DNA from: Powellomyces hirtus | Taxonomy: Eukaryota; Chytridiomycota; Chytridiomycetes; Spizellomycetales; Powellomycetaceae | NCBI GenBank assembly: GCA_025526995.1 | Contig: JAHLKG010000007.1 | Location: 62,001 to 126,000 of the forward strand | Reading direction: 5' to 3' | Length of the DNA stretch: 64,000 bases | Part shown: piece after piece, positions 1 through 51,034 of the stretch | Layout: every line of letters begins with the position of its first letter | Position numbering within the stretch: the first letter of the stretch is position 1 | The notes under the pieces: model-generated | Seen by the model: the letters and a program-made list of their open reading frames with translations, nothing else | Told to the model about the DNA's origin: nothing | Databases searched by the model: none | Position numbers and translations under genes: made by a program

Positions 1-2
1 AC

Positions 3-1258
3 AATTTCACCATTCAGCTCAAACCCGGCTCGAAGCTCGTGATGCAACCACTCTGGCATTTAAGCCCTGACGAGCTGGACGAGCCCGGCCAGCAGATGCA
101 GCGTCTAATGGACAAGGGCTGGATCTCACACTCTCGCAGTCCGTGGGGCGCGCCCGTCCTATTTGCCCCAAAGAAGGACGGCGGCCTACGCTGCTGCATT
201 GACTACCGGGCACTGAACAAGATGACTCACAAGGATGCCATGCCACTTCCGAGCCTCTCGGAGCTGCGCGACAGGCTTGTTAACATGCGGGTATTCACCG
301 CGATCTACATCCGCGACGCGTACCACTGCATCATGATCCGACCGGAAGATAGGGAGAAAACAGCATTCCAAACACGTTTTGGACACTTCGAATACAATGT
401 TCTACCTTGCGGCTTAACTAATGCACCTGCTACATTCCAGCGACTAACCAACAAGCTCTTGGGCGACAAGTACGACACCTACGTGATCTCATACCTCGAC
501 AATATTCTCATATTCAGCACCAACATGAGTTTGCACATTCAGCACGTCGACGAAGTCCTCAAGACCTTGGCGGAACATCGCCTCCATGTCAAACCCAGCA
601 AATGTCAATGGGCGGTTGACAAAGTCAAGTTCTGTGGCCACCGAGTCGGCAAGGATGGCCTGAGTATCGCCCCCTCCAAGGTGACCGCGGTCCGGGAACG
701 ACCTCTCCCGACCAACTCCCTGGAGCTCCTTAGCTTCATGGGCCTCCTCAACTATGTCAAGGAATACATCCCCGAGTATGCACAGATTGCCCTACCCCTA
801 ACGAATTTGCAATCCGGCAACCGCCCATGGCAGTGGGGTGACGAGGAAGATCGAGCGTTCAATCGCTTAAAGGAATTATGCTCCTTGGCACCCACCCTAG
901 CGTACTTCGACCCGGCGCTCGACACCTACTTGTTCACGGACGCATCGGGCTACGCCTACGGTGGATGGCTGGCACAGCCGGCCAAAGGGGATTTCCCTTA
1001 CCCTCACCCACTACCAACCACCAAATCGGGCTTAGCCAACCTCCCGCAACTTCGCCCGGTGACATACTACTCCCGCAAGATGCAACCTGCCGAGACTCGA
1101 TACCCCGTGCATGAACAAGAACTACTGGGATTAGTCAAATCCATACGCGCCAACCGCCATTACCTCATTGGCCGCCTGTTCCGCGCGTTTGTTGACCACA
1201 AATCCCTGATCTACCTCCAGGAACAACCCCACCTGTCACAGGCTGGGTTGAGTTCCTC
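3..1258 (+). pseudogene. pol: gypsy pol: reverse transcriptase and RNase H, degenerate
   Basis: The frame is open from the window edge. RT motifs follow in order: a WGAPVLFAPKKDG block (about 150-180), RCCIDYRALNK, PCGLTNAPATFQ (410-435) and the catalytic box at 489-515. RNase H shows TDASGYAYGGW (about 937) and the YPVHEQELLGLV segment. It is probably inactive. The first catalytic Asp, usually in an IDLRDAYH-type motif, reads IYIRDAYH (near 301-318), and the YxDD box reads YLDN (near 493-505). A frameshift near 1236-1241 separates the RNase H tail. The homologous fragment at 27285-27604 carries 10 extra bases there (CGTCGCCAAG), so Y has a 10-nt deletion. The Met at 39 is internal and is not a real start. 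Confidence 0.9.
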
Positions 1259-3028
1259 CAACAGTTCGATTTCTCAGTGGAATACCTCCCCAGCACATGG
1301 AATTCGATCGCCGACTTCCTCAGTCGCGACCCGACTTACGCCCCCAAGTGTGCGACCTGCCAGGCCAAGATCGACGTGGTCACCGCCATTGTGCAGACAG
1401 AGAAGCCCGTCACGACGCACATGCCGACCGATGCGGACTGGACCCAAGCGCTCGCATCGGATGATTTTGGCCAACACATCTTACTAACCATCAACAGTCC
1501 AACGGAGAACCTATCCGGCCATGCACGCCGATTCCGGACAGTGGACTCCCCTCCGCACCGATTCTTGATGTACCATGACCGTCGGTACGTCCCCGACAGC
1601 TTGCGGGGGCCACTCCTTCAGACTCATCACGACTCCCTCGCGAATGGTGGTCACTCCGGTGTCCAACGGACGCTCGCCAAACTTCTGGAGTCGTACTATT
1701 GGCCCCACATGGAACGTGATGTGTACCAATATGTCCGCACCTGCCCTACCTGCCAACGTCACAAACGACCCGCGCCGATCGGTTTCCTCTGCAGCTTACC
1801 GATCCCCGACGCTCGGTGGCAGCAAATCGGCATGGATATCTTCTTCCCCACGTCAGGCTCTAAGGGGGGGGAACCTCGGGTAGAGCCCGACGCGACGAAG
1901 AACCCTTCGCACCACACCGGCGAGAGACTGACCAAGACGGTGGACGCCGTACTCCTCATCGTTGACTACCTTTCATGCCGCGTGATACTTCTACCTACTA
2001 ACACACGTGCTACAGCTCAGGAGACGGCTCAACTCTTTCTGGAACAGGCATTTCGCCACACGGGGTTGCCCCACACCATCGTGAGCGATCGGGACCCCAA
2101 GTGGCTATCAGAATTCTGGCGGTACCTCATGCAGGCACTGGACGTCAAGCAGGAACTCTCGTCGGCACGACACCAACAGACCGACGGCAAGGCGGAGAAC
2201 GCCATCAAGACGATCAAGGGAATCATGGGCCCCTTTCTTGACTATGCCGGCTCCAACTGGAGGAATTTACTCCCCACACTCGAGTACAACTACAACCGAA
2301 CGCCGCAGACGTCGACGGGACTATCCCCTTTCGAGATTGACCTAGGCCGCATCCCCCGGGTACCGAACCAATGGGTAGCACCTAACCCCGGAGAGATGAT
2401 AAGGCAATCGGCACGAACCACCGTGGAGAGACGGGTTAAGGAATTCGCTGACGTGAGTCGCATTGTGCAGCAACAGCTCCAAGACGCACAGGACCAGCAG
2501 GCAAAGTACTACGACCGCAAGAAGCACACGGAAGCATACCGAAAGGGTGACAAGGTCTTACTCCATCGTGAGGGTATCGCGATTACCAGCGTCACCTCAA
2601 GGAACAAAAAGCTAGCTGCGCAATGGATTGGGCCATTCACAGTACGTGGCAAGGGGCCGCATCCTGACACCTACAAGCTTGAACTACCCAAGGAGTTCAC
2701 CGGATTGCACCCAGTCTTTCATGTCAGCATTCTGAGACGTTACCACGACCCGGGCGGTACCCCGTACAGACAGGTCACTGCCCCGCCTGAGCCCAAGAAG
2801 GACGAAGACGGTCAGGAGACCTACCAGGTGGACAAGATCCTAAATGCCAGGTGGCACAGGAACACCGAGCAGTTCTTAGTCAAGTGGACAGGTTACAACA
2901 ACACCCAGAACACGTGGGAACCGTATGCACACGTGAAGGGAACGACCGCACTGGAAGAATGGCTCCGGGAGCACCCCGGAGAGGACCGCGGCCAAAGGCT
3001 GGCAGCCAGGCAACGTAAGAGAACCTAG
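1241..3028 (+). pseudogene. pol: gypsy pol: RNase H tail, integrase and C-terminal chromodomain
   Basis: Reading resumes in the +1-shifted frame at 1241 (GWVEFLQQFDF) and stays open to TAG at 3026-3028. The integrase has an HHCC zinc-binding region (about 1624-1770, ending CPTCQRHK) and a D,D,E core: MDIFF (near 1832), SDRDPKW (near 2085) and GKAENAIK (near 2190). A stretch rich in K, G and E (about 1855-1935) between the first two Asp residues looks like an insertion. A GPY/F-like module (QWIGPFTV, about 2620) is followed by LHPVFHVS. The chromodomain begins YQVDKIL (about 2824) and continues FLVKWTGY and NTWEP. In chromoviruses this C-terminal module can direct integration to modified histones. 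The coding frame itself is uninterrupted, but it depends on the disabled upstream RT. Confidence 0.9.
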
Positions 3029-3095
3029 ATAGCGAGCTGTACCGTAAATTAACAAAAGAGATGCTACGTGAGGTAGAGGACATTATAGTGCAAGA
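3029..3095 (+). other. pol 3' flank, no gene seen
   Basis: Short AT-richer spacer between the pol stop and the hairpin array. No ORF or motif can be supported. Confidence 0.5.
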
Positions 3096-3858
3096 TTCCG
3101 GCATCGTTGGACAATGGCCGAAGGCTGCTGGGCAGCATACCTCGCTGGGCAAGATGCCGGCATCGTTGGACGATGGCCAAAGGCTGCTGGGCAGCATACC
3201 TCACTGGGTGAGATGCCGGGATCGCTGGGCGATGAGCCGACGGCTTGCCGATGCAAGGTGACCGGCACCAGATTTGCATGGCAGCGTACCTCGAGACCCG
3301 CGGGGACCATGGCCGTGGTACATACCTGCGCGAAGGGGAAGAGAAGGGCTTCGGCCAAGATACCGGCATTGTTTGACAATGGGCCGAAGGCCGCTGGGCG
3401 GCATACCTCACTGGGTGAGAAGGGTGATGCTGGGCATTGACCGGCTTGCCGATGCAAGGTGACCGGCACCAGATTTGCATGGTAGCGTACCTCGAGACCC
3501 GCGGGGACCATGGCCGCAGTACATACCCACGCGAAGGGGAAGAGAAGGGCTTCGGCCAAGATACCGGCATCGTTTGACGATGGGCCGAAGGTCGCTGGGC
3601 GACATACCTCGCTGGGCGAGATGCCGGGATCGCTGGGCGATGAGCCGAAAACTGCGAGGCAGTAGACCTCACAAGGTGTGATGCCGGCATTGTTGGACGA
3701 TGGCCGAAGGCTGCTGGGCAGCATACCTCGCTGGGCGAGATGCCGGGATCGCCGGGCGATGAGCCGAAGACTGCGAGGCAGTAGACCTCACTAGGTGAGA
3801 TACCGGCATTGTTGGACGATGGCCGGGGAACCGCTGGGCGGTCTTCCCAACGGGGAAG
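3096..3858 (+). repeat. array of about 27 short hairpins with covarying stems
   Basis: A degenerate unit of about 60 bp recurs across this stretch. Each unit holds three stem-loops of about 13-16 nt spaced roughly 20 nt apart, mostly a 5-bp stem around a TGG-type loop. Stems differ but stay paired: GCTGC/GCAGC (3124, 3183, 3710), GCCGC/GCGGC (3390), GTCGC/GCGAC (3591), ACCGC/GCGGT (3830), ACTGC/GCAGT (3651, 3770), ATCGC/GCGAT (3221, 3629, 3748), CTCGC/GCGAG (3608, 3727), CTCAC/GTGAG (3200, 3407, 3787), CATCG/CGATG (3161) and CATTGT/ACAATG (3367). The array ends with a 6-bp stem, CTTCCC/GGGAAG (3843-3858). A longer repeat of about 200 bp (3240-3440 and 3441-3640) contains CGGC-tt-GCCG and GGTG-accgg-CACC hairpins. 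Few mismatched units were seen (3102, 3141, 3668). Function is unknown; it lies in the presumed 3' UTR of Y. Confidence 0.85.
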
Positions 3859-4091
3859 TGTGATGCAGGGCATCTACCATGAGCACCATAGCCGGGAAGA
3901 AGCCGAGTGACATTGGACACAGCGGACGCATACGAAATGCTACAAGGCTCAAGGGAGCACAGCGATGAGAAGGCAAGTACAGCGATGAGATTTTGGTACT
4001 GAATTTGATTACGGCCCGGAGGCCAGGCCCCAAGGGAGCAACAGACAACAATCGAAAGTATATACAAGAAAGAGGGGAGGGGGAGAACAAA
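3859..4091 (+). other. intergenic/3' UTR-like stretch, nothing recognised
   Basis: No convincing coding frame and no hairpin units. It lies between the hairpin array and the stop codon of the minus-strand gene, so it could hold that gene's 3' UTR. Confidence 0.4.
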
Positions 4092-4783
4092 TCAACCAAG
4101 CTTGGTGAAGGAGAACTGGCACGGATTGCCGTGGCACCGGTTGCCCAACCCGCACCGGAGGGGGGTGTAATTTGCCACGTTCATCTCGCTGCAAAGAGAG
4201 CTGAGCTAATCAGTTAAGACAGCAGCAGGCCGAAGAGTACTACTTACGCGCGGACGTGGCCCATGCAGTGGAGATGGTTGCATGGGAACATGCAGAGGTC
4301 CGCTCCGACATGGTTGCAGCCAGCGAACTGGCACCCGGCGGGGATGGCCGCAAAGAAGAGGACCCGGCCGCAGTGGGGGGCGCCGCACGTCAACTGGCCC
4401 TGAGGGCCGTCGTTCTGGAAAGCAATGGAACAAGGGAACCACACCGTTAGGAAGGCATCAGGCCGCCCCTCAGCGAAAGGAGAACATACCGTGTCGTCGG
4501 CCGCCGCCACAATGCAGGGCCGGCACACCAGATGGTGGCATGCCGACGTGAACATCTTGCCCTTGCGGAAAAGATGGCACTTCCAGCAAGCGGGCAAGTC
4601 GGCTGACCCCTTGGGGGTGGACTTTTCATGGACCGAGGGGTCCTGTAGGTAACAAAGGAAGACGGGCAACATGAGACAAGTTGCCACACCCGAGGATGAG
4701 CCCTGACCCCTACTTACCCGGGCGGGCTGGGCCCGCTTGGTTGCGCCTTTCGGAAGTTGTTGGGCGGGCCGGCGCTTGCCCAT
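4092..4783 (-). CDS. Cys/His-rich (RING-like) protein gene with two introns, antisense to gypsy Y
   Basis: A minus-strand gene model in three exons: 4718-4783, 4248-4642 and 4092-4188. Intron 1 (4643-4717, 75 nt) has donor GTAAGT and acceptor CTACAG. Intron 2 (4189-4247, 59 nt) has donor GTAAGT, a CTTAACTGA-like branch site and acceptor TTTGCAG. Splicing both gives 185 codons ending in TGA at 4092-4094. The product is basic at the N terminus (MGKRRPAQQ) and then Cys/His-rich: CWKC, CHHLVCRPC, CGAPHC and several later CxxC/CxxxH groups that continue into exon 3. The CxxC-x12-CxHxxCxxC start resembles a RING finger, so zinc binding is likely; ubiquitin-ligase activity is only a guess. A second ATG lies 59 nt upstream (4840-4842) beyond a 17-base G run, one base out of frame. 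Keeping the Cys/His pattern across intron 2 is the main support for the splice model. Confidence 0.6.
4189..4247 (-). other. predicted intron 2 of the antisense gene
   Basis: On the minus strand it begins GTAAGTAGTAC and ends CTCTCTTTGCAG, is 59 nt long and phase 2. Without splicing the reading frame stops immediately (TAA at 4244-4246). With splicing it continues 31 more codons with further Cys and His residues. Confidence 0.6.
4643..4717 (-). other. predicted intron 1 of the antisense gene
   Basis: On the minus strand it begins GTAAGTAGGGG and ends GTTACCTACAG, is 75 nt long and phase 0. Unspliced it stays in frame, adding 25 residues that lack the Cys/His character of the flanks. Confidence 0.65.
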
Positions 4784-4798
4784 GGTGGTGGTGGTGTC

Positions 4799-4842
4799 GG
4801 GGGGGGGGGGGGGGGAGGAGAGTTGTTGGGGGTGTCAGCCAT

Positions 4843-4888
<46 letters not shown>
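4799..4888. repeat. G17 homopolymer and (GT)n microsatellite
   Basis: A run of 17 G (4799-4815), then about 45 nt of GT dinucleotides (4844-4888). Both lie just upstream of the antisense gene's start. The G run separates two candidate ATGs and is prone to length change and sequencing error. Confidence 0.95.
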
Positions 4889-4889
<1 letters not shown>

Positions 4890-5303
4890 TGTGAGTTCGT
4901 CAAGCTACAAAGAAAAGAAGAGCGAGAGGGGGAGATTCAACGGGCAGTACCTTTTTAAAGGCTCGATCTGCCTGGGAACGCTCGGAAATTCAGGTGTTAG
5001 TGTTTCATCCCCTACGGAGCGCAGCAGATGTTACTTATCGAAATCCGCATGGAGGAAGCTACTCGTGATTCATCTAGGGCCCCTGCGAAGAGAGAAATAG
5101 ACTTTCCGACGACTTCGCGCACCACGAAGGGCGGAGACTACCCGCCGGAGACTACCGCGACGCGACCCGCACCAGGGCCCCTCCCCAGCCTCATCTTCCC
5201 ACAACCACGTCAGCATCCGTTAACCCGCCGCCGCCCGGCTTAGGCAAGCTTCGCCTCGCTGAAGAGATTCGAGCCTAAGAGATAGTCGCAAATCTAAGGG
5301 GGG
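4889..5303. other. upstream region of the antisense gene / gypsy pre-LTR region
   Basis: No supported coding frame. It would contain the promoter of the minus-strand gene; a CTTTAAAAAGG box reads on the minus strand at 4950-4960. It ends in the purine tract AAGGGGGG (5296-5303) that precedes the LTR. Confidence 0.4.
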
Positions 5304-5578
5304 TGTAATGAGGCGTGGCTCGCCAACCTAAGCCTAGACACGCATCGGGAAGGACCTCGCGCGAGATGGATGCTAGCGTCAGCATCCCAAAGGGTACTAG
5401 ACCTTAGGGATGGCCACGGATGGCCATCACGTGACCGGGACCGCCCCGCGGTCCAGAAGAAAAGTAGGAATACTCCGACAAGGGCGTATTCAAGACTTAG
5501 AGATCTTACAGTAGAATTAGAGATAGGGAATTCCCGAATAGAAGACTAGACTCTGGCAACGGACCTAGTATTATTACA
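5304..5578 (+). repeat. LTR of gypsy Y (3' LTR)
   Basis: 275 bp, starting TGTAATGAGG and ending TATTATTACA, which gives terminal inverted repeats TGTAAT/ATTACA. It is immediately preceded by a polypurine tract. Right-hand flank begins CAGGC; the left target copy is outside the window. Confidence 0.75.
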
Positions 5579-5658
5579 CAGGCGTTCTAGCTGGAGATTT
5601 CAAATTAGGATCTAATGTAAGGACTAACATGGAGTACACAATGCTCAACATTCCAATA
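5579..5658 (-). repeat. truncated family-1 LTR (3' LTR of Z)
   Basis: Matches the last part (plus-strand reading) of family-1 LTRs, ending AACATTCCAATA. It is cut at its left by the end of gypsy Y and joined at its right directly to an RT fragment, so the PPT and RNase H region of Z is deleted. Confidence 0.85.
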
Positions 5659-5880
5659 ACAGCAACAGCAATGTCAGGGCTTGTGCAGATCATGAGGTAC
5701 ATGAGAGATCCAACAATTTTGCGATATTCTCCTTCTTGTGGGTTTAACAAAGTCTTTGTATTTTCGACCTTGTAGGGTTCAAGCTTGGTCTTGTCCATTG
5801 GGGTATTGACAACCTGGCAGTCTTGCATACCAAAGCACTCAAGGAAGTCATTTACATATGACTCTTGATTGAGATAGCTG
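5659..5880 (-). pseudogene. pol: family-1 RT fragment (element Z)
   Basis: The minus strand encodes diverged copia RT segments equivalent to YLMICTSPDIAVAV and QDCQVVNTPMDKTKLEPY, matching A at about 7170-7360. It continues at 33293 after removal of the nested insertion. Confidence 0.85.
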
Positions 5881-6493: not shown

Positions 6494-9400
6494 TTACTCA
6501 TTCGGGAGCTCCGTCATAGACGCTTTCGTCATTGGCGTGATGGTGTTGTCGTAGTGCTTGATGCACATGCTTTCGCGATGGTATTTGAATGCCGGGGCTG
6601 GTAAAGGCTTCGTGAGTGAGTCGGCTACCATTTCAGCGGTGGGTAAGTACTCCAGGTGAATCTCCTTATCGATGTGATCACAAATGAAGTGATGTCGAAT
6701 GTCGATGTGCTTGGTACGGGCGTGATGCACGGGATTCATTGCCAACGAGATGCATGACTGATTGTCTTCGTAGATCGTTGTGGGTCGAGCATTTTCATCA
6801 AGATATTCGGGGATTTGGAGTTCTTGCAGAAGTGAGCGAAGCCAGATTGTTTCTTGAGTGGCAAAGGAAAGTGCCATATATTCAGCTTTGGTAGATGAGA
6901 GAGCAACGGTGGGTTGGCGCTTCGAAGCCCAAGTAACGGGGCCCGCATTTCCAATGTAGAAAAGGTAGCCAGTGATTGACCGTCGATCAATGATATTGTT
7001 TCCCCAATCGGCATCGCTGTAGCCGTGAAGGGTGACGTTATTTCCGCCGATGCAGAGGCTGTAATCTGATGTTCCCCGTAGGTAGCGAAGAACGCGCTTG
7101 GCAGCTTGCAGATGTTGAGGCGAAGGGTTGCTTGCGAAGCGAGAAAGCATACTGACTGCGACAGCGATGTCAGGACGCGTGCATATCATCAGGTACATGA
7201 GAGAACCAACGATTTCGCGATATTCTCCTTCTTGCGGGTTAGGTGAAGTCTTTGTATTTTCGACTTCGTAGGGTTTGAGCTTGGTCTGGTCCATCGGAGT
7301 GTTGACGGGCTTGCAATCTTGCATACCAAAGTGCTCGAGGATGTCATTTACATATGACTCTTGATCGAGATAGATGACGTGCCTTGAGTAGTCGCGTCGA
7401 ACTCTCATTCCCAGGTAGTGGTTGACTTCGCCTAGGTCTGTCATGTTGAACTCGTTGTGCAGGGATGTCTTGATTGACGAGATTTCCGATTCGGTCTTTG
7501 CGAAAATGAGGAGATCGTCGACGTAGACGGAGATGTACTGCGATGAGTCACTTTCAGATAGAGTTCTGATGTAAACGGCATTGTCATTTGCCAGGCGCTT
7601 GAATCCCAAGGAGGTCAGTTCCTTGTGAAGTAGGGAGTACCATTCGCGCAGGGCTTGTTTCAGACCGTAGAGGGCCTTTCGGAGTCGAAGGATGGTCCCG
7701 GGCGGAAAGCCAGAGCCTTCAGGGGCATAGATTAGGATGGTCTCGGTAACAATCCCATTCAGGAATGCGGTTACTACATCCATTTGATGGCATTTCAAGC
7801 CTAGACTGGCGGCGAGAGCGAGAAGGACGCGTTGGGTAGCTATCTTGGCAACCGGAGCGTAGGTTTCGTTGTAGTCGATACCGTAGCGTTGTTCGAAGCC
7901 TTTCACTACAAGCCGGGCCTTGTATCATTGGGGTTGACCATTCAGGTCTCGCTTAATCTTGAATACCCATTTAGTGCGGATGGGCCGTTGATTGTGCGGT
8001 AAGGATTTGGGGTTAATGACTTCCCATGTTTCATTGGTATGAAGGGACTTCAATTCGGCATTTATGGCCTCGGTCCACTTCGGCGCGTCGTCTGATGAGA
8101 GCGCTTGTTTGTAGGTTTGGGGTTCTTCGGTACTTGCAGCCGAGAGAGCGATCGCCGTCTTCTCGTTGATGTAGTCAGCGAAGACTGTCAAATGATTGAC
8201 ATTTTCGAGCGGTTCCCATGTATTATCTTCGTCTTCGAATCCTAGCCATTTGCAGAGGAATTCGGGGCCTTCCGGGCCATCACGTGAGTCGAGAATCTCT
8301 TCGACTTCGTAGAGTTCTTCGGGCGGGATGTAGTCTTTCGCTAGTTCGAGTGCTGAGTTTTCGTCGAACGTTACATCGCGAGAAATGACTATTTCTTGAC
8401 GGTTGTCATCCCAACAGCGGTAAGCGCCGTCAAATTCGTAACCGATGAGTTTGAGACATGTGGCGCGCGGTGCCAACTTTGAGACTTGTTTTCTCTTGAC
8501 GAGATGCATGAAGGCATCGGCCCAAATCACACGAAGGTGAGAAAGTGAGGGCTCTTCGCCGTTGAGCCGTTCGTACGGCGAAATGTTGTTATTGGACTTG
8601 TGGGGTAGGCGATTCCGTAAGTAGACTGATGTAGCCGCTAACTCGGTCCAGAGTTGTTTCGGGATGCCGTATGAGTGTTCCAATGAACGAATGGTGTCGA
8701 ACAGGGTGAGGTTGCACCTTTCAGCTACACTTTTGGACTGTGGGGAATCTGCAGCGGTGAGTTCGTGCAGGATGCCCTTTTTCGAAATGAATTCTTTCAG
8801 ATCGTGATTGACAAACTCCCCCCCTCGATCGGAATGAAGTCGTCTGACCCTTTCGTTGGTCTGTTTTTCGATGAAATTGATGAATTCAATCAATTTTGCA
8901 GTAGATTCGCTCTTCGTCTTCAAGAAGAAGATCCATGTGAAGCGTGAATAGTCATCGATCACAACGAGGGCATATTTCTCATCGCCAACCGCGGGTATGT
9001 GCGGACCGTTTAGGTCAAAATGTAGGCGATCGAGTGGCGTCTTGGACCGTGTCATTGTACCGTTGAATGGTGAGCGCTTGTGCTTACCAAACTCGCAACC
9101 TTTGCAGACTTCGTTGGTCATTGGGAGCTTGAGTTGCTTTATGATGTGAGTGCCAGGATGGCCCAATCGGTGATGCCAGAGGGTTCCTTCGTTGACAGGA
9201 GAAAAGGGACCAGAACAAGCCCCAGAAGAAGCCGCCAAAGCAGCGGCGGCGGCCGGCCCCCCACCACAGCACCCACAACTCTCACTCTCCAGTGGGGGGC
9301 TGGCCAGCCCCAAATTGGGGCGGCCAGCCCCCTCACTGGAGAGTATGGGGCCGACGTTCCCCAATGGGGCCGACCAGCCCCGATTTGGGGCGGCCGGCCC

Positions 9401-11314
9401 CTCCGTCGTGGCTTGAAGCGGGGTAGAACGCGTGACCGAGATGCCGGTAGCGTCTGTCGATAGGTGGAGTGCTTGAATCGATGTATCGGACGCGTGTGTC
9501 GGTACATTGGACGCGTTTGTCCATTTTGTCAATTCGGTAGATGTAATTTTCGACGCGTGTGTTGGTACATTGGACGCGTGTGTCCTTGAGCGAGTTTGAG
9601 TAGCGAAAGCCATCGGAGTTGGCGAGATGTGATACATTCCTCGAACGAGAGGTATGGTGATGTCGTTCGTAGTGCCATTGCAGTCTTGAATGACAGCGCT
9701 TTCATTTTCAAAGGTGACTCTCTTTCCATCTTTGGCGAGTGCGGAGACCGAGATGAGAGTCTTGGCGAGCTTCGGAACGTAGAGAACATCTGTGAGGGGT
9801 ACATCTCCATCTGGAAGCTTCAAGATAGCTTTCCCTTTCGCTTTGGCATCGAGAAAGGCGTTGTTTCCAAATCTGACGCGCGTTGAGTGCTCTTCGTAGG
9901 ATTCGAGAATGGAAATGTCATTCGTCATGTGCTGTGAGCAGCCCGAATCCAGGTAAGCCAATGTAGTGGCGTTATGTGCTTCTGCAATGTTGGCATTAGC
10001 AGCGGGTTTTAAGGCTTCGACTGCCTTGGCTTTGAGGGGACAATTGAATGGGGTATGTTCATTCGAATTGCATAACCAACAGGGGAAGTTCTGTCTCTTC
10101 TTCGAGTCTGTGGTCTTCTTCGCGTCGGTCTTCTTGTGACTTGAGCCGTCTTTCTTTGAAGGTTGGGCTTCGAGCGCGATGTTTTTGCTCTTCTTGGCGA
10201 AACGGTTGTTTTGGTTACTCTTGTTACTTCCGTTATCCAGACGCTTGGCAGCTGCCATGAGGCCATGGAGATCCTTGAAACTTTGAGTTCTGACGAGCTC
10301 TGCATGATGTTCATTCATTCCGCGAAGGTAAAACCACTTGTAGATTTCGAACGGCACCTTCAAGGGGATTTGACTTGTAATCTTCATGAATGAGGTATTG
10401 TACTGCGAGATGGAATGACTTCCTTGTCGGAGTCTTTCAAGTTGAGTGAGCAAAGTTTCTTCGTGATCGCTTGGTTGGTAATGCGAGAGGAAGGGAGGCT
10501 TGAAGGATTCCCAATCCGTGATGGGCTCCACCATCCCTTGTTCGGCATCTTTCTGGTGATTACGATACCATTGTTTTGCTTCGCCAGAGAGCTTCGTGAA
10601 GATGAATGAGAGTTGTTCTTCTTCAGATACAGGTTTTAGGCGAAAGACTAGAGTAAGTTGATCGATGAAGTCGGCGAGTTTTGAGAGATTTCCCGTCCCG
10701 TCGAATGTAGATACTGCATCGATCGCAGATTTGAAGTATGCGAATGATGTACGTTGTGCGTCTCGATCATCGCTCTTTCTGCTGCTCGTAGTTGTTGTGC
10801 TCTCCGTTGGGGAAGACGGACGAAAGTGAGGGGCAACTGGGGCTTCAACTTCGCCGTGAGTAATGTGTTGATGTAGAAAAGGGTACTCAAGGCCCACTTT
10901 TGGGCTTCTCATCGGTGAAACGGCCGTAGAATGACCACCGATATGAGGCTTTTCGTACTTCTCGGGTTGTTGATGGGAAGTTGATGTAGCGAGAGGGTTT
11001 GAACTAGTCAATAAAGTCCTCTCCAACCTGTCCATCCGATGGTCGAGCTTTTCGTCGATTTCCATCTTGAACCTCTGCAGAATTTGCATGACAATGTCAG
11101 TCGGTACTTCGGACGGTACTATTGCCGAGTCTGCATGAATTTCTCCATGATTCATCTCATCCACATCGGCATCTGCGTCGTGGGAATCATGGTAGATTGA
11201 GGCATCGATATTAACGTCTTCTTCAGCGTCAGGACCCCGTTGGGCTTCTCGTGTGGCTTGACGGGCTTGTTGGCGGGTCTGCACTCCTAGAATGGGAGAT
11301 CTTACAGTAGGCAT
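6494..11314 (-). CDS. gag-pol: family-1 copia Gag-Pol with gypsy-type Gag and internal chromodomain
   Basis: A 1606-codon polyprotein with one in-frame TGA (7925-7927, codon 1130). Order by approximate residue: Gag 195-365, like Retrotrans_gag of gypsy elements (FDGTGNLSKL, AKQWYRN); CCHC knuckle CWLCNSNEHTPFNC near 412; aspartic protease LDSGCSQHM near 453; a low-complexity linker 640-700; integrase HHRLGHPG with CKGC near 713-740 and D,D,E near 765, 823 and 863; chromodomain 1001-1037 (YEVEEIL, FLCKWLGF, NTWEP); RT from about 1085 with YVDD near 1263; RNase H from about 1430 (DADWG, LSSTKAEYMAL), ending TKPLPAP. The integrase-before-RT order makes it Ty1/copia. The stop arises from a CGA codon still present in copies B and F. 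Start Met at 11314 follows the leader after the PBS. All catalytic residues are present. Confidence 0.9.
9285..9343 (-). repeat. long GC-rich hairpin in the protease-integrase linker of A
   Basis: CTCTCCAGTG at 9285-9294 pairs with CACTGGAGAG at 9334-9343. The next block, GGGGCTGGCC, pairs with GGCCAGCCCC, and the centre is GCCCCaaattGGGGC. The linker is different in every family-1 copy. Confidence 0.8.
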
Positions 11315-11414
11315 CTTGACGGTGTGCTCCGTACTGTCTTGGCACTTGAATTTGACGGAAGACTTGTAGTTTACAGGTTTTACGAAGGGAGAATGATTCG
11401 AATTCGACCGGTCT

Positions 11415-22183: not shown

Positions 22184-25100
22184 CATTCAGCAAGTAACAC
22201 GTGGGTTCGGTGTGCTTCCATAGACGCGCCCTCATTGCATATCCTTTCATCAAATATATGAGTCCCATTCGTAATCCTCAAAACAGTGTCCTTATGTTTC
22301 ACAGTGGGAAAAGGCTTCGTAAAGATGTCCGCCAGTTGATCGTCCGTATTGGTGTCGATGATTTCGATAATTTGCTTCGCGAACGAATCGCGTATAGCGT
22401 GGTACCGAACGTCGATGTGCTTGGTGCGTTGGTTGATAGCCTTAGACTGAATCAAGGCCCCGGCGCTCTGATTATTGACATGGAGAGGGACCGGTCGAGA
22501 TTTGAAATCCGGTTGAGGTCCCAAAACTTCTGCCAAGAGTTGGCATAGGCATTTATCTTCGTTGTGACCGGTACTGGCAGCTATGTACTCCGCTTCGGTC
22601 GTACTTTGGGCGGTGCACTTCTGCTTGCTGCTTTTCCACAGAACAGGAAACCCATTGTAAAGGGCCAAGATACCCGTAGTGGACGTACGGTCGGTGAGTT
22701 CTCCTGCATAATCCACATCCGTGAATACGTGTAGGCCACGCGGATCATTTCGTTCGGATGTGAACTTGAGGGCGTACTCGCGGGTACCCTTCAAATAGCG
22801 GAAAATGCTTTTAACATTGTTCCAGTCGGAGTGAGTAGGTGCGGTGACGCGGCGCGCAACGTAACCGACTGCAGTGGCGATAACTCATCGCCATGTGATG
22901 GAGGCCCAAGTGAGGACCCCCACTGCTTCCTGATACATTTTGAGATTCGTGAATGGTGTCGAATCCTCCGGTTGTTGGTTACGCGCTGACACGGCGTACG
23001 GAGTGGAGACAGGATGGCAGTCGCTCATGCCGAATTGTTCGAGAGCGTCATCGATGTACTTGACATTTGAGATTTTTAGGGTACGAACAGGAGAGTCGAA
23101 GTCATATTTGTAGATGGGACCAAGGTGACTGGTTACGCGACCTTGTTCCGTAAACTTGAACTTCGAATGTAGCTCCATTTTGCTGTTCGCCAGAATCTCC
23201 TGATCCTTCGCTGCAATCAGCAGGTCGTTGACAAAGACCATAATAAGGACCAAGTTGTCGTTCAACGGAGGTGTACGGTCGTCTGTTGCGTACTTGAAAA
23301 AGATACACGGGCATACAGAAACCGCTTTGTAGCCGAGCTTTAACAGAGCAGTCTTCAAGGTCTCATACCAAAGAAGAGGTGATTGCTTCAGGCCGTAGAG
23401 AGCTTTCAGTAGCTTCAGGACCCAATCGCCTTTGGGGTGATCCGGATCTTCGAATCCCTCAAACTGCTCGATATAGATATCCTTATCAATATCACTGTTA
23501 AGGAAGGCGGTGACAGCATCCATACTGTGGATGTCCAGCCCGTGCTGGACACAATACGCCAAGAAGAGGGGGTAGCGCTGTGAATGGTAGCGTCGGTGAG
23601 TATGTATCACCAAAGTCGCGACCGGGTTGTTGAGAGAAGCCTTGAGCCACTGCTCTGGCTTTGAACTTGTTAAAGGTGCCATCGGGATTGACCTTTGTTC
23701 GAAAGACCCATGTTGTGCCGATCACGCGCTTGTTACATGGAAGCTTGGTGAGCTCCCATGTGCCGTTGTCGACCAGGGATTGGTACTCGATGCATGCAGC
23801 CTTAAGAAATTCCTCCTTCTGAGGGGTTTTCATCGCTTGCTTCCATGTCATGGCGTCTTCGTTTATCGTTGCTTGAGTCCGCGCGCGGGCGGCGTATGCA
23901 GCAATGGGGTCATTTCGTCGTGTGCCGACATCGTATGCGGCTACTCGATTCTCCCAGTCATCCAATGCAGTAGTATTGAGTAGTGAAAGTCGGGACTCCC
24001 ACGTAGGTTCTTGATAGCCCTCCCACTTAACCAAGTACTCTTTTGTATGCACCTTACTGCGGCGCTCGTCGATAATCGCCTCCACGGCGTATTCGACGTC
24101 ATCCTCCTGACTCTCCTCATCTAGAAGGTCAAGATGTGCTGGATCCTGCTGATTTCTGGGTTCGAGTCCCAAGTCTTCTTTGAAGATCACATCTCGTGAC
24201 ACTTCCACCTTGTCAGTGATAGGATCCCAAACCAGATACCCCTTGGTACCTGAGGGTTGAGCATAGCCTACCAAGTAAGCCTTCTTTGCTTGATTTCCCA
24301 TTTTATCGCGTCCTTTGCTCGTTAGAACGGAATACGCCACGCAACCGATACGCCTAAGATGGGCAACATCAGGACGCTGGCCAAATAAGATTTCATGCGG
24401 CGTCTTCTTGTTGATGCGGTTGTACGTAAGGGAATAGATGTAACCAGCCGCTACCAGTAGAGCAGGCCAGAACCTTTGGGGTAGTTTCGTATCCGCAAAG
24501 GTGGCGCGGACCCTGTCCAGCGCCGTGCAATGCCATTGTTTGGCAATCCCGTTTTGCTGATCCGAATAGGCTGCGGACTTTTGATGAGTGATACCATTAT
24601 TCAATAGGGACTCTAGAACCTTGCCAAAGTATTCGGTGCCTCGATCCGTATGTAGGATCTTGATTTGTCGGTCAGTCTGTTTCTCAATCCAGGCCTTGTA
24701 GACGAGAAACTTGTCGAGTATGACTGCTGAGTCCTTTGAAGGAATAGGGAAAACAGTCACGTATCTGGATGTGTGTTCAATGAACTCCAGCAAATAGCGT
24801 GATCCTTCGTAACCAGAGAGACGAAATGGTCCCTGTAGGTCTGAATGAATCAGCTCACAGATCTCCCTGGCTTCAACGTTACCAGGGGAGAATGGAAGAC
24901 GAGCGGCTTTTCCTAACACGCAAGCTTCACAATCTTTGAAGTCACTTAGATCCCCCACTACGGACCAACGGTCCGTAACCGATGCCATCTTCTCCAGGAC
25001 GTGTTTGCCAACGTGTCCAAGACGAGCATGAGCGAGTGTAGGAGAGACTTTGACCGTGCATACTTCTGAATCTGAGCACAGACTTTCAGACAGTAGCGTA

Positions 25101-27028
25101 CCTTGCAGGTAATATGCGTTGTTGCGGCGTACGCCCTTGGCGATATCTTTGCCGTCTCGCGTGAAAATGACGTCTCCATTCGATTTGAAGAGCACGTCAA
25201 CGCCTTGATCGTTACATTTTGCTACCGATACGAGATCCCGTTGTAATCCTGGCACATGCAGGACTCCGCCCAACTCGAGCGGATTCAGATAGTCGTTAAC
25301 TTCTACTCGTACCGTACCTCGAACTGTAGAGGGTAGTGATGTTTTGTCAGCAAGCATAACAGCTCTGACATCACTGAACACGGTTGAGTGATCCAAGGTC
25401 GCTTTGTGAGGTGTCATGTGGTCCGTAGCGCCAGAGTCGATGAGGGCTTCATACGGTTGTTCTTGGCGGACCCAGACGTGTAATGCTTCCACAGCATTTG
25501 TGCTAACAGCACCATCAGACGACTCCTTCGTCTTGTTCTTCTCCATCTCGGATTTGAACTTCTTTAACACTTGACACTCCTGTGTCCGGTGTTTAGGGTC
25601 TCCACAGGCCCAACAACCCGACTTGTGTGGTTGGCCTTTGTTTGATGGAGTGGATTCCTTGTCCTTCTTGCCGGTTGACTTCTCCCCATGGGTCCTACCC
25701 TTTGGTTTCTTAGAGGCATCAGTGTATGCGGCACCTGGTCGCGTATCCGTTGTGGTCCCGCTAGGCTTCTTAGCCATGTTGGCGGCGATCCTGGATGTGG
25801 CGGCCTGTAAACTGCTCAAATCAGTTATGTTTTCTTCATTAGCCTGAACCAAGGCCGCAAGGTCTGGTGCTAGCGCGTTAATGAAGTAATCCTGAAGGAC
25901 GTAATCCGGTGTCTTCGGCAGAGAAAATGCCAGCATGTTGAACTGAGTGATGTACTCATCCATACGGCCTTTGGGACGCAATTCCCGTAGTTTCTGCAGC
26001 AAATCTCTTGTGTGGTTTTGTGGCGCGAAGCGCGCCAGAAGGGCGGACCTAAGACCGGTGTTGGTTCTTCCTGAATCAACGTCTTCAAAGTCATGCCACG
26101 TCATAATTTCGTTCTTTTTACTTGGGGAGGGCGACTGCCACCAAGTGTATGCCCATCCTGTGAGTTTCGCAGCCACAAAATCTATGAGAAACTCGGGCGG
26201 AACCATTTCGTACTTCACAACCGTCTCAATCTTGTCGATGAACGTTCGAAGTTTGACCATATTGGATTCTCCATTGTAGGACCCAATATCTTTCAGCGTT
26301 CCATCCACGAAAGCCTTCGCCCCTCGACTGTTGACGATTTTGGTCGTCACGCTGTTTATGCTCGATGTTGGTGACGTAGGGCGGCGTTCGATTGGAGAAC
26401 GTTGGTATTCCTGTTGAGCTCCAATCTCCTGATTGTACTCTGTCCACGGTGCAGCAAACCCGTCGTTGTGAGTGGGTGATGGTGTGTGTACGCGCCATTG
26501 CACCGTACGTACCTGAGGGTTGATCGGGATGTTCACATCCTGATCCATGCGCCATTTCATTTGGAGCAATTCCGTTAGTTGGGCTAGAGAATTCTCAAGC
26601 CTATCTATCCTATCCATGTCTGCCCCTTGCGGGCGTACATGCATGGTGTTCGCTGATTCCCCACTTGGGAATGCCGCTGGAGTACTGTAGTTGATCGTTC
26701 TGTGATCATCTGTACTGCTTGATAGGGGACGGGTATCGACCTTGTCATCGTGTCGGTCGATGTTTCGGGTACGCCCTTCCAATGCATCGTCGCCCTCGTT
26801 GGCATTGACGCTCAAAGGCGTTGGCTCTGCCGGTGTATCGTTACCAGCAGATTTCCCTCCATTGTCTGGTGATGTCCATTCACCAGGCACTTGTGCGCTC
26901 TTCTTAGCGGCACGTTCTACGGCTCGTTGTAGCGTATTGGACCCTGGGGTCCGTCGACCCGCTAGGCGTCTTAGCATACTACGAGTGTACCGGGGGCTCG
27001 TTTCGTTGCCTACCATTTCAGCGCTCAT
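21742..27028 (-). pseudogene. gag-pol: family-2 copia Gag-Pol with internal chromodomain
   Basis: Frame 1 (27028-about 23580): gypsy-like Gag (residues about 230-415: IGSYNGESNMVK, AYTWWQSPS), CCHC CWACGDPKHRTQEC near 471, protease LIDSGATDHM near 531, integrase HARLGH with CEACVLGK near 665-710, then D (HSDLQGP) near 727, D (TDRGTEY) near 793, and a third position reading GIAKQWH near 828 where Glu is expected. The chromodomain is at 978-1022 (YAVEAIID, YLVKWEGY, PTWES). RT starts before a frameshift near 23580 and continues to a TGA at 22885-22887. RNase H continues in that same frame from 22884 (FTDVDYAG, STTEAEYIAA, FTKPFP). ATG 27028 overlaps the PBS; the next Met, five codons on, may be the real start. 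The tail 21742-22180 probably is not coding on this strand. Confidence 0.85.
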
Positions 27029-27032
27029 AACC

Positions 27033-27284
27033 TGTTGGTCTGAGAGTATCTGGGTAGATAGTTGAGGAAGCTTTCAGGGTAGTTGACTGGGCAAAACAAC
27101 AAAGTACGCTCTATTGGAGAAAAAGAGAAAAGTCCCACCGATATATTAAGTAATGGAGGAAAACTACTTATATTGGAGTTGATCACGTGGTTTGCACGTG
27201 ATTGCGTGGCTCATCATAGTGGCGTAGCATACGCCCTGCGATGGCGCAGTTGTGACTCAATGACAGAGTCTGTACGTGCTAACA
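27033..27284 (-). repeat. 5' LTR of E
   Basis: 252 bp. It contains CACGTG at 27184 and 27195. Followed on the minus strand by a PBS with one mismatch (GGTTATGAGCGC, 27021-27032). Confidence 0.9.
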
Positions 27285-38513: not shown

Positions 38514-39013
38514 TGTTGAGACGTCTTGACATCTACAAACAGGAACTCAGCATACCAGATAGGTTGCTAGGTTGTTGTCAAGACTTGCAGAGGGTCTGAA
38601 GGTGCTTCCCAAGGTAGGGAAGGTCGCCTGTAGTGTTTGGCAGAGTGTACTAGACAAGTAGAGTGTGTTGGACTGTTATTATATTAGTTGGGGATGCCCA
38701 GAGGGCGTCCTTTTATAACAATTTGGATCAGAGTACATGTGTAGTGACAATCTAACTGTGCCCTAGCTTGGCCAAGACGGCCCTGGCCTGGCCTAGTATT
38801 GTTCCCAATCACAGGGTGTCTTTTTGCCTTTTCTTGGCGCTTCTATCAGCGCTCCAGACGTGTTCTAGGCCTTCCCAGGCCCTCTCCAGCTATTCTGGAT
38901 CGTTCTAGACCATTCTGGACCAGTCCAGACCATTCTAGACACAAGTGGATGTCCTCCCACATGTCCCGTGTGCTCTAAGTCCTCCCAGAAGCGCCCACAG
39001 GTAGATTCCAACA
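38514..39013 (-). repeat. 3' LTR of H
   Basis: 500 bp. On the minus strand a TTATAAAA promoter-like box lies at 38711-38718. Confidence 0.97.
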
Positions 39014-39020
39014 CTCCCAC

Positions 39021-42000
39021 TCACGAAACATGTTTTGTGATCCCACAGGCGTCCCTCAGTTTCAAGAACTGATCCCTAGCCAGTGGTTTTGTCAAGATGT
39101 CTGCAACCATGTCCTGAGTCGAGAGATACTCTAATGCAATCTCCAAGCGTCCTAGTGCTTCTCTGATAAAGTGGTACCTCACTTCAATGTGTTTGGTGCT
39201 GGCATGCAATGTCGGGTTCTTAGCAAGAGCGATGGCACCCTGGTTGTCCTCAAAGAGCATTGTGGGTCCATCCTGCTTGAATCCAAGCTCCCCTGCAAGC
39301 AGACGAAGCCAAACAGCTTCCTTGGTGCACTGGGCTAGTGCCATGTACTCTGCTTCCGTGCTTGAAAGAGCTACAGTGGTCTGCCGCTTGGATTGCCAGG
39401 TGATAGGCCCGTTGAACATGAAGATGAATCCAGTGGTTGATCTCCTTGTGTCCAAACATCCAGCATAGTCGGAATCCGAGTATCCAACCAGCTTCCTAGG
39501 CTCAGAGACATTCTCTTTGCCTCCCAGAAGGATTCCAAGTTCGCTTGTGCCCTTCAGGTATCTGATGATCCGCTTGGCAGCACTCCAATGCTCCTTTCCA
39601 GGCTTTGCAAGGTACTTGGACACAATTCCAACTGCAGCAGCAATGTCAGGGCGTGTTCCTAGCATGGCATAGATCAAACTGCCCACTGCATTCCTGTATG
39701 GCACAGAGCTCATCTCCAGCTCCTCCGTCTCATTCTGAGGTGCCATGTTGTTTCTGAGGTGCAGTCCATGTTCCATAGGCGTGGCATGAACCTTGGCATC
39801 TCCCATGTTGAATTTCGAAACGACCTCTTCAACATACTTCTTCTGAGACAACCAGATGGTGCGGGTGCTTCTGCTCCGTCTGATGTGAATCCCAAGGAAG
39901 TAATTCAGCTCTCCAAGGTCTGTCATCTCAAAAGCTCGCCTCAGCTCCTTCTTGACATCCCCCAGCTGTTCCTTGCTTGATGAGGCCACAATGAGGTCGT
40001 CCACATAGATCAGAATGTACTCTGTTGTCCCATTCTGACTCCTGTAGTACATGCAAGGCTCTGCAGTCGACTGCACAAAGCCCATAGACTTCAGTTTGTG
40101 GTCTATCTTGTGGTTGAAGCGCCTTGCTGATTGCTTGAGGCCGTAGAGGGGTCTCCCAAGCTTGCAGACCCGTCCTGGATGCTTGGAATCCTCAAAGCCC
40201 TCCGGTTGGCGCATGTAGATCACATAGTCCAGATCCCCTTGCAAGAATGCTGTCTTCACGTCCATCTGATGTGCCTCCAAGTCATCTGTGGCAATGATGG
40301 AGAACAGCAGTCTCATGGGACCAAACTTGGCAACAGGAGCAAACGTCTCCTGATAGTCCAATCCCTCTCTCTGAGAGAATCCCTTGGCAACAAGTCTTGC
40401 CTTGTATCTGTCAAGCTCTCCTGTGTCCTTCAGCTTTCGTTTGAAGACCCACTTGCATCCAATAGCTTTTCTGCCCGTTGGCAGATCCACAAGTTGCCAT
40501 GTCCCATTCTTGGCAAGAGCATCCATCTCTTCCTGAGCAGCCTGACGCCATTGTGAAGCATCTGGCATGGTCTGGCTCTCCTTGTAGCTTGTGGGCTCGT
40601 TTGAGACAAAGGAGACAGCATAGGCAACTGCAGCAACGTTTGCAGCGTTGCTTGAAGCCTTCCACCACTCTCCTGGCGGCTTCCTGAGTCTTTTGGGGGT
40701 TGGAGAAGGCTCTGCAGCACTCTCATAGTCAGAGGACGGCTCAGGGGTCCGTTCCCTCATGTTCTCCTCTCCCTCTGACATGGCTGTGTCCTCAGAGTCG
40801 TCACTGACATCCTGCAGCTCGTCACTGACATCCTGCAGCTCGTCACTGACATCCTGCAGCTTCATTTCGGGCCCAATTCCCACTTCCAGGCTCTCAGCAG
40901 GCACTTGGGGCGTCTGAGCAGACTGGAGGGATGGAATGAAGCTCTTCTCATCGAATTTGACACTTCTGGAGAACAGGATCTTCTTAGTCTGTATGTCCAT
41001 AAGCCGGTATTCCTTGCTGTGGGAGCTATACCCCAGCATGATGCACTTGACAGCAGCATCATCCAGCTTCTGGCGCTTGTTGGGTTGAATGTAGGCATAG
41101 GCAATGCATCCAAACGTCCTCAAATGTCCCAGAGATGGTGGGATACCAAGGAACATCTCATAAGGCGTCTTGGGGCATGCAACAGTGGGAGATCTGTTCC
41201 TCAGATAGACTGCTGTCATGATTGCTTCTCCCCAGAAACGCTTGTCCAAGCCTGACTGCTTCAACAAACATCTCCCCATCTCCACAAGGGTACGGTTGGC
41301 TCGTTCAGCAACACCATTTTGCTGTGGAGTATTTACTGAACTCCTCTGATGCTGTGTGCCCTTCTCCTTGAAGTGGTCCCTTAGCAAGTTGCTCATGTAC
41401 TCGCCTCCTGGGTCGGATCTGACAGCTTTGATCTGCTTTCCATGTAGGGGGACAAGTGCTGCTTCCAGCTCCTGATAGTGCCTAGCAACTTCTCCCTTGG
41501 TCTTCATAAGGCAAACATGGAAATATCTTGTCTTGTCATCAATGAATGTGACAAAATAGCGATATCCAGTGATCGTGGGTGGTTCAACTGGTCCCCAGAC
41601 ATCTGTGTGGATCAATCCCAGCTTCTCTGATGCTCTGGAGGCCTGTGCCTTGGGGAATGGCGCTCTGCTTGCTTTGCTGAGTGCACAAGTGTCACAAATG
41701 CTCAAGCTCCCACTAGTTTGAACGCCCTTGGCAAGCTTGGTGAGCCTTCCAATGTCTGCAACGTTCAAATGGCCGAGTCTCTGATGCCATAGGGACAAGT
41801 CCTGACTTGTTGTGTCCCTTCCAACATTGTGGGCAATCCCAGCATTTGCCTGCCCATGTGTTGTCTCGAATGTGTAGACAAATTGGTTCTCTTTGGCAAG
41901 GAAAGCCATCCCATCCTTTGCAATGATCCGAGCAGCCTGTGGTCCCACTTCAAAACAAGCTCCAGCTTTGGCAAGGCGAGCCAGTGATAGGAGGTTCTTG

Positions 42001-43094: not shown

Positions 43095-43352
43095 AATGGG
43101 ATAGTCCCGGTGTTCAACCGCAAGTGGTCAGAACCTGCTCCAGAAAATCCACTCCAGTCCAGTCCAGTCCAGACAATAGCTCGTTTGATGGTCAGACGCA
43201 GGTGTCCTATGCCTGCTATCTAGGCTTCTCGAGTGCTCAAACAGTTCTCCAAGTCCTCAGCAGCACCAGTGATAGGCACAGTGACGTGTTTCCCAGATAG
43301 GGATAGAGGTGGAGTCAGTAATGTTCAGACAGCTGTGTCAGGGCTCATAACC

Positions 43353-43852
43353 TGTTGAGACGTCTTGACATCTACAAACAGGAACTCAGCATACCAGATA
43401 GGTTGCTAGGTTGTTGTCAAGACTTGCAGAGGGTCTGAAGGTGCTTCCCAAGGTAGGGAAGGTCGCCTGTAGTGTTTGGCAGAGTGTACTAGACAAGTAG
43501 AGTGTGTTGGACTGTTATTATATTAGTTGGGGATGCCCAGAGGGCGTCCTTTTATAACAATTTGGATCAGAGTACATGTGTAGTGACAATCTAACTGTGC
43601 CCTAGCTTGGCCAAGACGGCCCTGGCCTGGCCTAGTATTGTTCCCAATCACAGGGTGTCTTTTTGCCTTTTCTTGGCGCTTCTATCAGCGCTCCAGACGT
43701 GTTCTAGGCCTTCCCAGGCCCTCTCCAGCTATTCTGGATCGTTCTAGACCATTCTGGACCAGTCCAGACCATTCTAGACACAAGTGGATGTCCTCCCACA
43801 TGTCCCGTGTGCTCTAAGTCCTCCCAGAAGCGCCCACAGGTAGATTCCAACA
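43353..43852 (-). repeat. 5' LTR of H
   Basis: 500 bp, same sequence as the 3' LTR by eye; drives the genomic transcript of H. Confidence 0.97.
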
Positions 43853-45696: not shown

Positions 45697-46196
45697 TGTT
45701 GGAATCTACCTGTGGGCGCCTCTGGGAGGACTTAGAGCACACGGGACATGTGGGAGGACATCCACTTGTGTCTAGAATGGTCTGGAATGGTCCAGAATGG
45801 TCTAGAACGATCCAGAATAGCTGGAGAGGGCCTGGGAAGGCCTAGAACACGTCTGGAGCGCTGATAGAAGCGCCAAGAAAAGGCAAAAAGACACCCTGTG
45901 ATTGGGAACAATACTAGGCCAGGCCAGGGCCGTCTTGGCCAAGCTAGGGCACAGTTAGATTGTCACTACACATGTACTATGATCCAAATTGTTATTAAAG
46001 GACGCCCTCTGGGCATCCCCAACCAATATAATAACAGTCCAACACACTCTACTTGTCTAGTACACTCTGCCAAACACTACAGGCGACCTTCCCTACCTTG
46101 GGAAGCACCTTCAGACCCTCTGCAAGTCTTGACAACAACCTAGCAACCTATCTGGTATGCTGAGTTCCTGTTTGTAGATGTCAAGACGTCTCAACA
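45697..46196 (+). repeat. 5' LTR of L
   Basis: 500 bp, TGTTGGAATC...CGTCTCAACA. The promoter-like box reads TATTAAAG where H has TATAAAAG. Confidence 0.97.
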
Positions 46197-50534: not shown

Positions 50535-51034
50535 TGTTGGAATCTACCTGTGGGCGCCTCTGGGAGGACTTAGAGCACACGGGACATGTGGGAGGACATC
50601 CACTTGTGTCTAGAATGGTCTGGAATGGTCCAGAATGGTCTAGAACGATCCAGAATAGCTGGAGAGGGCCTGGGAAGGCCTAGAACACGTCTGGAGCGCT
50701 GATAGAAGCGCCAAGAAAAGGCAAAAAGACACCCTGTGATTGGGAACAATACTAGGCCAGGCCAGGGCCGTCTTGGCCAAGCTAGGGCACAGTTAGATTG
50801 TCACTACACATGTACTATGATCCAAATTGTTATTAAAGGACGCCCTCTGGGCATCCCCAACCAATATAATAACAGTCCAACACACTCTACTTGTCTAGTA
50901 CACTCTGCCAAACACTACAGGCGACCTTCCCTACCTTGGGAAGCACCTTCAGACCCTCTGCAAGTCTTGACAACAACCTAGCAACCTATCTGGTATGCTG
51001 AGTTCCTGTTTGTAGATGTCAAGACGTCTCAACA
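50535..51034 (+). repeat. 3' LTR of L
   Basis: 500 bp, preceded by the purine tract GAGTGGGAG. Confidence 0.97.

Follow-up and report, generated by a model that had tools for sequence, protein, structure and literature searches.

A tandem array of short hairpins lies at positions 3098-3874 of the window, the 64,000-nt stretch of the Powellomyces hirtus genome that was analysed (C7:62001-126000), about 70 nt past the stop codon of a gypsy pol and 1.4 kb ahead of the 3' long terminal repeat (LTR). Within one chytrid clade of Ty3/gypsy chromoviruses, the array is inherited as part of the 3' untranslated region (UTR); its position and its presence in the sampled copies of the clade were directly observed. 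For its role, the explanation favoured here, tentatively, is that it has been selected for structure and would serve as a multivalent RNA-binding array, the likeliest partner being the element's own Gag.

The part of the gypsy pol inside the window (1-3028, plus strand), delimited by Pfam matches and open frames, comprises reverse transcriptase, RNase H, integrase, SH3/Tf2-1 and chromodomain regions (Pfam RVT_1, RT_RNaseH_2, RT_RNaseH, Integrase_H2C2, SH3_Tf2-1 and Chromo). It is divided over two overlapping open frames, with the frame change within 1196-1487, and stops at 3028; its best-named protein matches are from Powellomyces hirtus (locus tags PhCBS80983; 65-89 % identity over 17-83 % of the query). 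With the upstream 6 kb included for the 5' end, the whole element occupies C7:59607-67578 (7,972 bp). The 3' LTR (5304-5578, plus strand; 275 bp, TGTAAT...ATTACA) is paired with a 5' LTR of 275 bp at L041:3607-3881, from which 6 of its 275 positions differ; a 5-bp target duplication, CAGGC, borders the element as a direct repeat. The array-bearing element is a Ty3/gypsy chromovirus: its pol has the order reverse transcriptase, RNase H, integrase and chromodomain, and it possesses the TG...CA-ended LTR pair, the target duplication and, before position 5304, a purine run that is presumably the polypurine tract. The internal leader ahead of gag, at 28 nt, could hardly accommodate a packaging signal, and Gag contains a single CCHC zinc knuckle. 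Between the pol stop and the 3' LTR the 3' region measures 2,275 nt, and the array lies within this untranslated part, as a reading made earlier from the sequence alone (the sequence-only reading) had proposed in calling it a structured 3' UTR. The long remainder of the region (3875-5303, plus strand) ends at the purine run.

Purine runs, each followed by TGTAAT, are present twice, at 4157-4170 and 5296-5309, 1.1 kb apart, and the LTR starts only at the second. An antisense open reading frame of 196 aa (4244-4834, minus strand) is also located in the 3' region of the gypsy element and has 93 % identity over 91 % to oncoid of 'Powellomyces chytrid fungus MELD virus 1'. Of 30 element copies examined, 29 had a match to it, distant in some; the frame was open over nearly its full length in 10 copies and split near residue 119 in 12. 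The stretch between the two purine runs, including this reading frame, may be captured sequence, and the sequence match suggests that the MELD virus annotation may contain retrotransposon sequence, or vice versa. The window contains further elements. Gypsy and copia parts are mixed in an unusual way in two Ty1/copia-type pol proteins (7925-11413 and 23498-27073, both minus strand), which have integrase ahead of reverse transcriptase and, in addition, a chromodomain downstream of the integrase and a capsid of Ty3 type (Ty3_capsid, Retrotrans_gag); RVT_2 was found in the second, and the first, as read from the open frames, runs on into a copia-type reverse transcriptase at 6494-7924. A third copia pol (39021-43127) has an ordinary copia gag and no chromodomain match. 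A 10-bp tandem ATTCTAGACC-type motif occurs at 38892-38940, 43731-43779, 45770-45818 and 50608-50656, stretches which are perhaps copia LTRs; the motif resembles a heat-shock element.

The sequence-only reading had described about 27 hairpins at 3096-3858, arranged in 60-bp units of three stem-loops, and this description was borne out with minor adjustment. A greedy scan allowing wobble pairs recovers, from 3097 to 3874, approximately 30 hairpins whose stems measure 5-6 bp; units recur every 59-60 nt and comprise three hairpins each. Strict hairpins (Watson-Crick stem of at least 5 bp, loop of 3-5) number 24 in the array, against a mean of 2.5 and a maximum of 7 in 40 dinucleotide shuffles and 0, 6 and 3 in three other 791-nt stretches of the element. 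Reading of the plus strand gives a decayed extra hairpin upstream of the array (3064-3076), which is intact in L044, L046 and L049 as CTACC(tgg)GGTAG, followed by a first block of two 59-nt three-hairpin units and one hairpin (3098-3240), a second block of unit U4 and the hairpin TGATGC(tgg)GCATTG (3363-3440), a third block of units U5 to U8 (3564-3802) in which two alternating hairpin types produce a higher period of 119 nt, and an end of four hairpins (3803-3874), the last of which is GATGC(agg)GCATC. The array is broken twice by a longer spacer with few hairpins (3241-3362, second copy 3441-3563), which gives a tandem repeat of period 201 nt.

Stem sequences vary (ATCGC, GCTGC, CTCGC, GATGC, ACTGC, ACCGC and others), as do the first two bases of the triloops (TGG, TTG, GAG, AAG, TAG, CGG and AGG were seen), and loop base 3 is nearly fixed, being G in 98, 99 and 94 % of hairpins 1, 2 and 3, respectively, among 210 units. 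These units were obtained with a unit profile that gave 397 matches in the 60 loci searched, from which the distinct, near-complete units were kept and 187 duplicates or gapped rows were dropped. Compared with 20 shuffles per strand, both strands of the array fold better (z -4.2 sense, -7.7 antisense), and in the minimum-energy fold of the complete array many of the small hairpins give way to long-range pairs. Rfam covariance models had no match with E ≤ 1 in 2900-5700. A protein-coding array was considered and rejected, the antisense frames of 269 and 234 aa and the sense frame of 122 aa having no Pfam match to E 0.1.

A check suggested by the sequence-only reading, whether the hairpins track the gypsy family, had a positive outcome: the array follows the clade in all sampled copies and was found in none of those outside it. 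Copies were searched over the 29.3-Mb assembly (60 contigs), and 40 of 102 candidate places from the DNA search were scored. All 40 contained the array and had the pol end upstream of it (in L035 as a short match only), and 39 had the downstream anchor, the fortieth stopping at a contig end. Units were also present in 20 of 20 further pol copies picked by hand outside these 40 (2-10 units each at E ≤ 1e-3, 2-8 at E ≤ 1e-4). Array similarity was detected by BLAST in 10 of 10 divergent pol loci at 51-86 % pol identity, which do not amount to ten subfamilies, L042/L043 and L050/L051 being near repeats of each other, and in none of 10 pol loci at 37-41 % identity; a covariance model agreed in both cases. 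Strict hairpins exceeded all 40 shuffles in seven of the ten divergent loci and were no more numerous than in shuffles in L047, L048 and L051. Unit number is variable. The distance from anchor to anchor ranges from 679 to 976 nt among the scored copies, mostly in steps of about 60 nt, and these copies contain 6-11 units each. In some copies of the clade, no more than 2-4 units were detectable within the stretch taken. Outside this genome, viral contigs were scanned for hairpin sequence and two protein searches were made; a match of a viral contig to a hairpin 19-mer (L082) was set aside as one chance site with no further array similarity.

The sequence-only reading had also offered a spreading hairpin element, and the genomic distribution speaks against it. 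One 20-nt hairpin sequence has 129 exact matches in the genome (reversed control, 0), and among the first 100 of these 129 places, 95 lie downstream of a same-strand pol match, at most 1.3 kb away, four belong to truncated element copies (two in L025, which keeps only the last bases of pol, and two in L084, which has the pol end) and one is an orphan. That a mobile element resembling the mitochondrial double hairpins colonised the retrotransposon is thus very improbable; the orphan, which stands without other element sequence, is what would be expected of it, but the 95 places beside pol and the four in truncated copies argue against it, as does the orientation of the units, which are on one strand only in 70 of 70 loci. 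Many independent insertions at unrelated sites would mark a mobile element, and a single orphan was seen in the first 100 of 129 places. The orphan is a single three-hairpin unit of 58 nt at C18:513671-513728 (L083:1471-1528), in a 2.6-kb stretch that otherwise lacks element sequence; the unit begins at the first outer stem base, ends just past the third hairpin and adjoins a TTAGGG-type motif, TTAGGGTTAGGGTTA. A telomerase-type origin of this unit was rejected: the same TTTTTAGGGTTAGGGTTACGG is found at C9 without the unit, so the telomere-like motif probably predates the insertion. In L025 the array and pol end abut an inverted LTR piece (window 5303-5578 reversed), a rearranged copy of the element.

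Stems that change on both sides together had been the central claim made for the array. Two-sided changes do exist, at 6 of 18 pairs among the seven window units, but part of the stem list put forward consists of CpG change, GCTGC/GCCGC and CTCGC/CTCAC differing by C-G to T-A at CpG sites. Across copies, the two arms of most CpG pairs decay independently of each other; at pair 8-16, for example, the counts are CG 113, CA 41, TG 39 and TA 14, with about 14 TA expected under independence. Single CpG changes are therefore unusable as compensation one by one. Because both kinship and CpG decay can mimic covariation, a home-made, R-scape-style test was built on a FastTree tree of the 210 units with Fitch reconstruction and 150 simulations, in which substitutions were re-thrown along the same branches, either plainly or with awareness of CpG context, and column pairs were scored with a G-statistic and average-product correction. 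Covariation above phylogenetic expectation holds for the named pairs in that 5 of 19 have E < 0.05 under both nulls (10-14, 28-40, 29-39, 30-38 and 48-54), and the other 14 showed no significant covariation in the same test. Two of the five, 30-38 and 48-54 (the latter corresponding to CTCGC/CTCAC), are of CpG type and still covary significantly. The scores of the 19 pairs sum to 692, the highest sum among 150 null simulations being 273, and five of the seven top-scoring among 1711 column pairs were structural. The largest null score over all 1711 column pairs averaged 126 (plain) and 133 (CpG-aware) and the largest real score was 142, so that significance depends on the 19 pairs having been named beforehand; unrestricted over all column pairs, the signal would be weak. 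Repeats with subsets gave three significant pairs for the window plus divergent loci (36 units), three for the window family (181 units) and five for a random 100 units.

Counts of pairs point the same way. In an alignment of 32 units (window plus eight divergent loci) made by sequence alone, two-sided cells numbered 49, against 20.1 ± 5.1 after re-dealing of the 3' letters, and 88.1 % of cells were paired, against 23-46 % with the partner slid; pair counts in the model-fitted alignment A2 went in the same direction. One of the five pair-count measures, further pair types, was not above shuffles in either the 7-unit or the 32-unit alignment. In slots picked by their linkers only, 3.92 of 5 pairs were Watson-Crick, compared with 3.03 once the arms had been re-dealt, and slots B and C agreed with this, though they included some matches outside arrays. 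In the majority state of 24 copies of equal length, 141 of 143 pairs were Watson-Crick and two were G.U. In the kind of alignment-based fold recommended by the sequence-only reading, RNAalifold on alignment A3 gave a different helix for the first hairpin, but the helix written by hand has more paired cells.

It is improbable that the covariation merely combines CpG decay on both arms with a small number of old unit types that unequal exchange has spread, free of structural constraint. Pairs such as 8-16 behave exactly in this way, the commonest hairpin types are old paralogues common to most copies, and two non-structural column pairs, 12-38 and 12-30, rank fourth and fifth of 1711 with scores like those of structural pairs, a sign of linkage between unit types. 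Such a process is hard to reconcile with the five named pairs that stay significant under the CpG-aware tree null or with a summed score far above all 150 simulations; moreover, 10-14, 28-40 and 29-39 are not CpG changes, as judged from neighbouring bases in A3, and the window with divergent loci suffices for three significant pairs.

Old and young changes differ. On the unit tree, double changes from one Watson-Crick pair to another account for 10 of 41 pair departures on deep branches (those leading to three or more loci), where two single changes on a long branch can merge into an apparent double, for 3 of 32 on shallow internal branches and for 7 of 160 on terminal branches. The contrast between deep and terminal branches has a Fisher p of 3e-4 with events treated as independent, array units being paralogues able to copy each other, and independent double changes on internal branches number only 13. 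This is the pattern expected if pairing matters during replication of the element and not after landing. The integrated copies show no sign of selection, as expected for dead insertions, and among the 24 equal-length copies stems are not slower than linkers (1.9 % against 1.2 % at non-CpG sites, 8.8 % against 5.6 % at CpG sites). The tree gives similar numbers of G.U and A.C mismatches (62 and 58 for terminal branches, 16 and 11 for deep ones), and one-sided changes in the 24 copies comprise 66 G.U and 52 A.C at CpG sites and 9 and 12 elsewhere; the antisense strand also folds no less distinctly than the sense strand, so that neither strand appears to be preferred. The proposal that selection or copying has acted on a folded form is supported in so far as the named pairs covary beyond the tree-based null; selection on RNA specifically is not shown, the strand test being neutral. 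The strand symmetry of mismatches would suit sites read at the DNA level, either palindromes for a dimeric protein or cruciforms, but a reader of DNA palindromes would need constant arms, and here the stems vary widely and the loop base is kept; this explanation is hardly credible.

The main sceptical rival is a neutral origin by arm copying, in which strand transfer or slippage enlarges the array and template switching within a hairpin keeps its arms complementary, with no selection. It would account for two-sided switches that lack sampled intermediates (at 3128/3132, CG 16 and TA 8 with no wobble), for the equal frequency of G.U and A.C and for the free variation in unit number, and the 3'-UTR repeats of plant Ogre elements are ascribed to illegitimate recombination or abnormal strand transfer in the available text of PMC7004042. 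Arm copying does not predict that loop base 3 should be G in 94-99 % of hairpins while bases 1 and 2 vary, nor that the triloop hairpins and their order should be retained in L046 and L049, which are 61-71 % identical in pol. A purely neutral origin is considered unlikely.

According to the favoured explanation of a multivalent binding array, the array would be transcribed as part of the genomic RNA and would form a binding platform there, a row of hairpins alike in shape and recognised by that shape and by the loop G. The likeliest partner would be the element's own Gag, with its single CCHC knuckle, which would use the platform to gather or package the RNA (for Gag as the favoured partner see PMC4974528, in its accessible part). 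Unit number would change by slippage or strand transfer during reverse transcription and could remain flexible because the binding sites are redundant. A modular array of about 30 hairpins, variable in copy number and selected for shape and loop base, that docks either Gag or a host RNA-binding protein is a possibility advanced with low confidence. If the docking platform is real, a tandem repeat, far from being junk, would be a functional RNA part that replicates.

A role in RNA stability, export or shielding from decay, in which hairpins about 70 nt past the pol stop would protect an unusually long 3' UTR of about 2.3 kb, is a close rival of the Gag reading but appears unlikely. The 2,275-nt 3' region may be compared with an estimated 0.3-0.4 kb in 8 of 10 loci that lack the array, measured from the end of the pol match to a purine run with TGT that suggests an LTR; no such run was seen in L056 and L061. 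The same clade, however, holds another 1.4 kb of 3' sequence, and the association is thereby with one lineage only. The stability element of Rous sarcoma virus is an RNA said to protect a long 3' region, and the array is like it in being placed directly after a stop codon and ahead of such a region, but the viral element is not known to be a tandem hairpin array.

Among packaging signals, those of retroviruses and Ty3 are similar in that stem-loops with exposed purines act as Gag sites (PMC8096270, PMC11381356, as far as available); looped purines are a Gag site in a retrovirus (PMC8096270, available part), and Ty3 needs its UTRs and POL for packaging and localisation (PMC8096270, PMC11381356, likewise). 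Those signals are few and mostly 5', whereas the chytrid array presents about 30 hairpins, putative Gag sites, on the 3' side. Mitochondrial double or repetitive hairpin elements, which had been put forward as the nearest analogy, share short hairpins in many copies (PMC2800124, accessible text), but the chytrid array is nuclear, tandem, in one orientation and inside one retrotransposon clade, with one orphan in 100 places checked. Plant Tat/Ogre 3'-UTR tandem repeats are the nearest known kind instead.

The earlier statement that no nuclear retroelement has such a layout needs qualification for this reason: plant Tat-lineage elements (Ogre and others) have hypervariable 3'-UTR tandem repeats, of which hairpins are not mentioned in the available part of PMC7004042. 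The chytrid array agrees with them in having tandem repeats between pol and the 3' LTR in variable number, plausibly through strand transfer (same source). In that text, retrotransposon 3'-UTR repeats are discussed mainly as products of aberrant replication and seeds of satellites. The covariation of the chytrid repeat survives control for relatedness and CpG at its own pairs, which makes it possible to ask whether such a repeat is a working RNA part, and this one genome, with its many copies, variants in unit number and divergent relatives, offers a natural series on the number of hairpins required. Macas et al. (2009) reportedly worked on the hypervariable 3'-UTR tandem repeats of Tat-lineage LTR retrotransposons. 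The plant Tat lineage is not known to have a chromodomain, and the chytrid element, which has one and whose closest proteins, as judged by protein matches, are from Powellomyces, was not placed in it. No description of a hairpin array in an LTR retrotransposon came up in searches of open-access papers; as far as these searches reach, the hairpin design with its covariation is new here, the 3'-UTR tandem repeats themselves being known. Relative to Tat/Ogre elements, the array belongs to a chytrid chromodomain gypsy element, shows no satellite expansion in the loci tested (at most 11 units in 70 loci) and is built of units of three partly covarying hairpins with a nearly fixed loop base.
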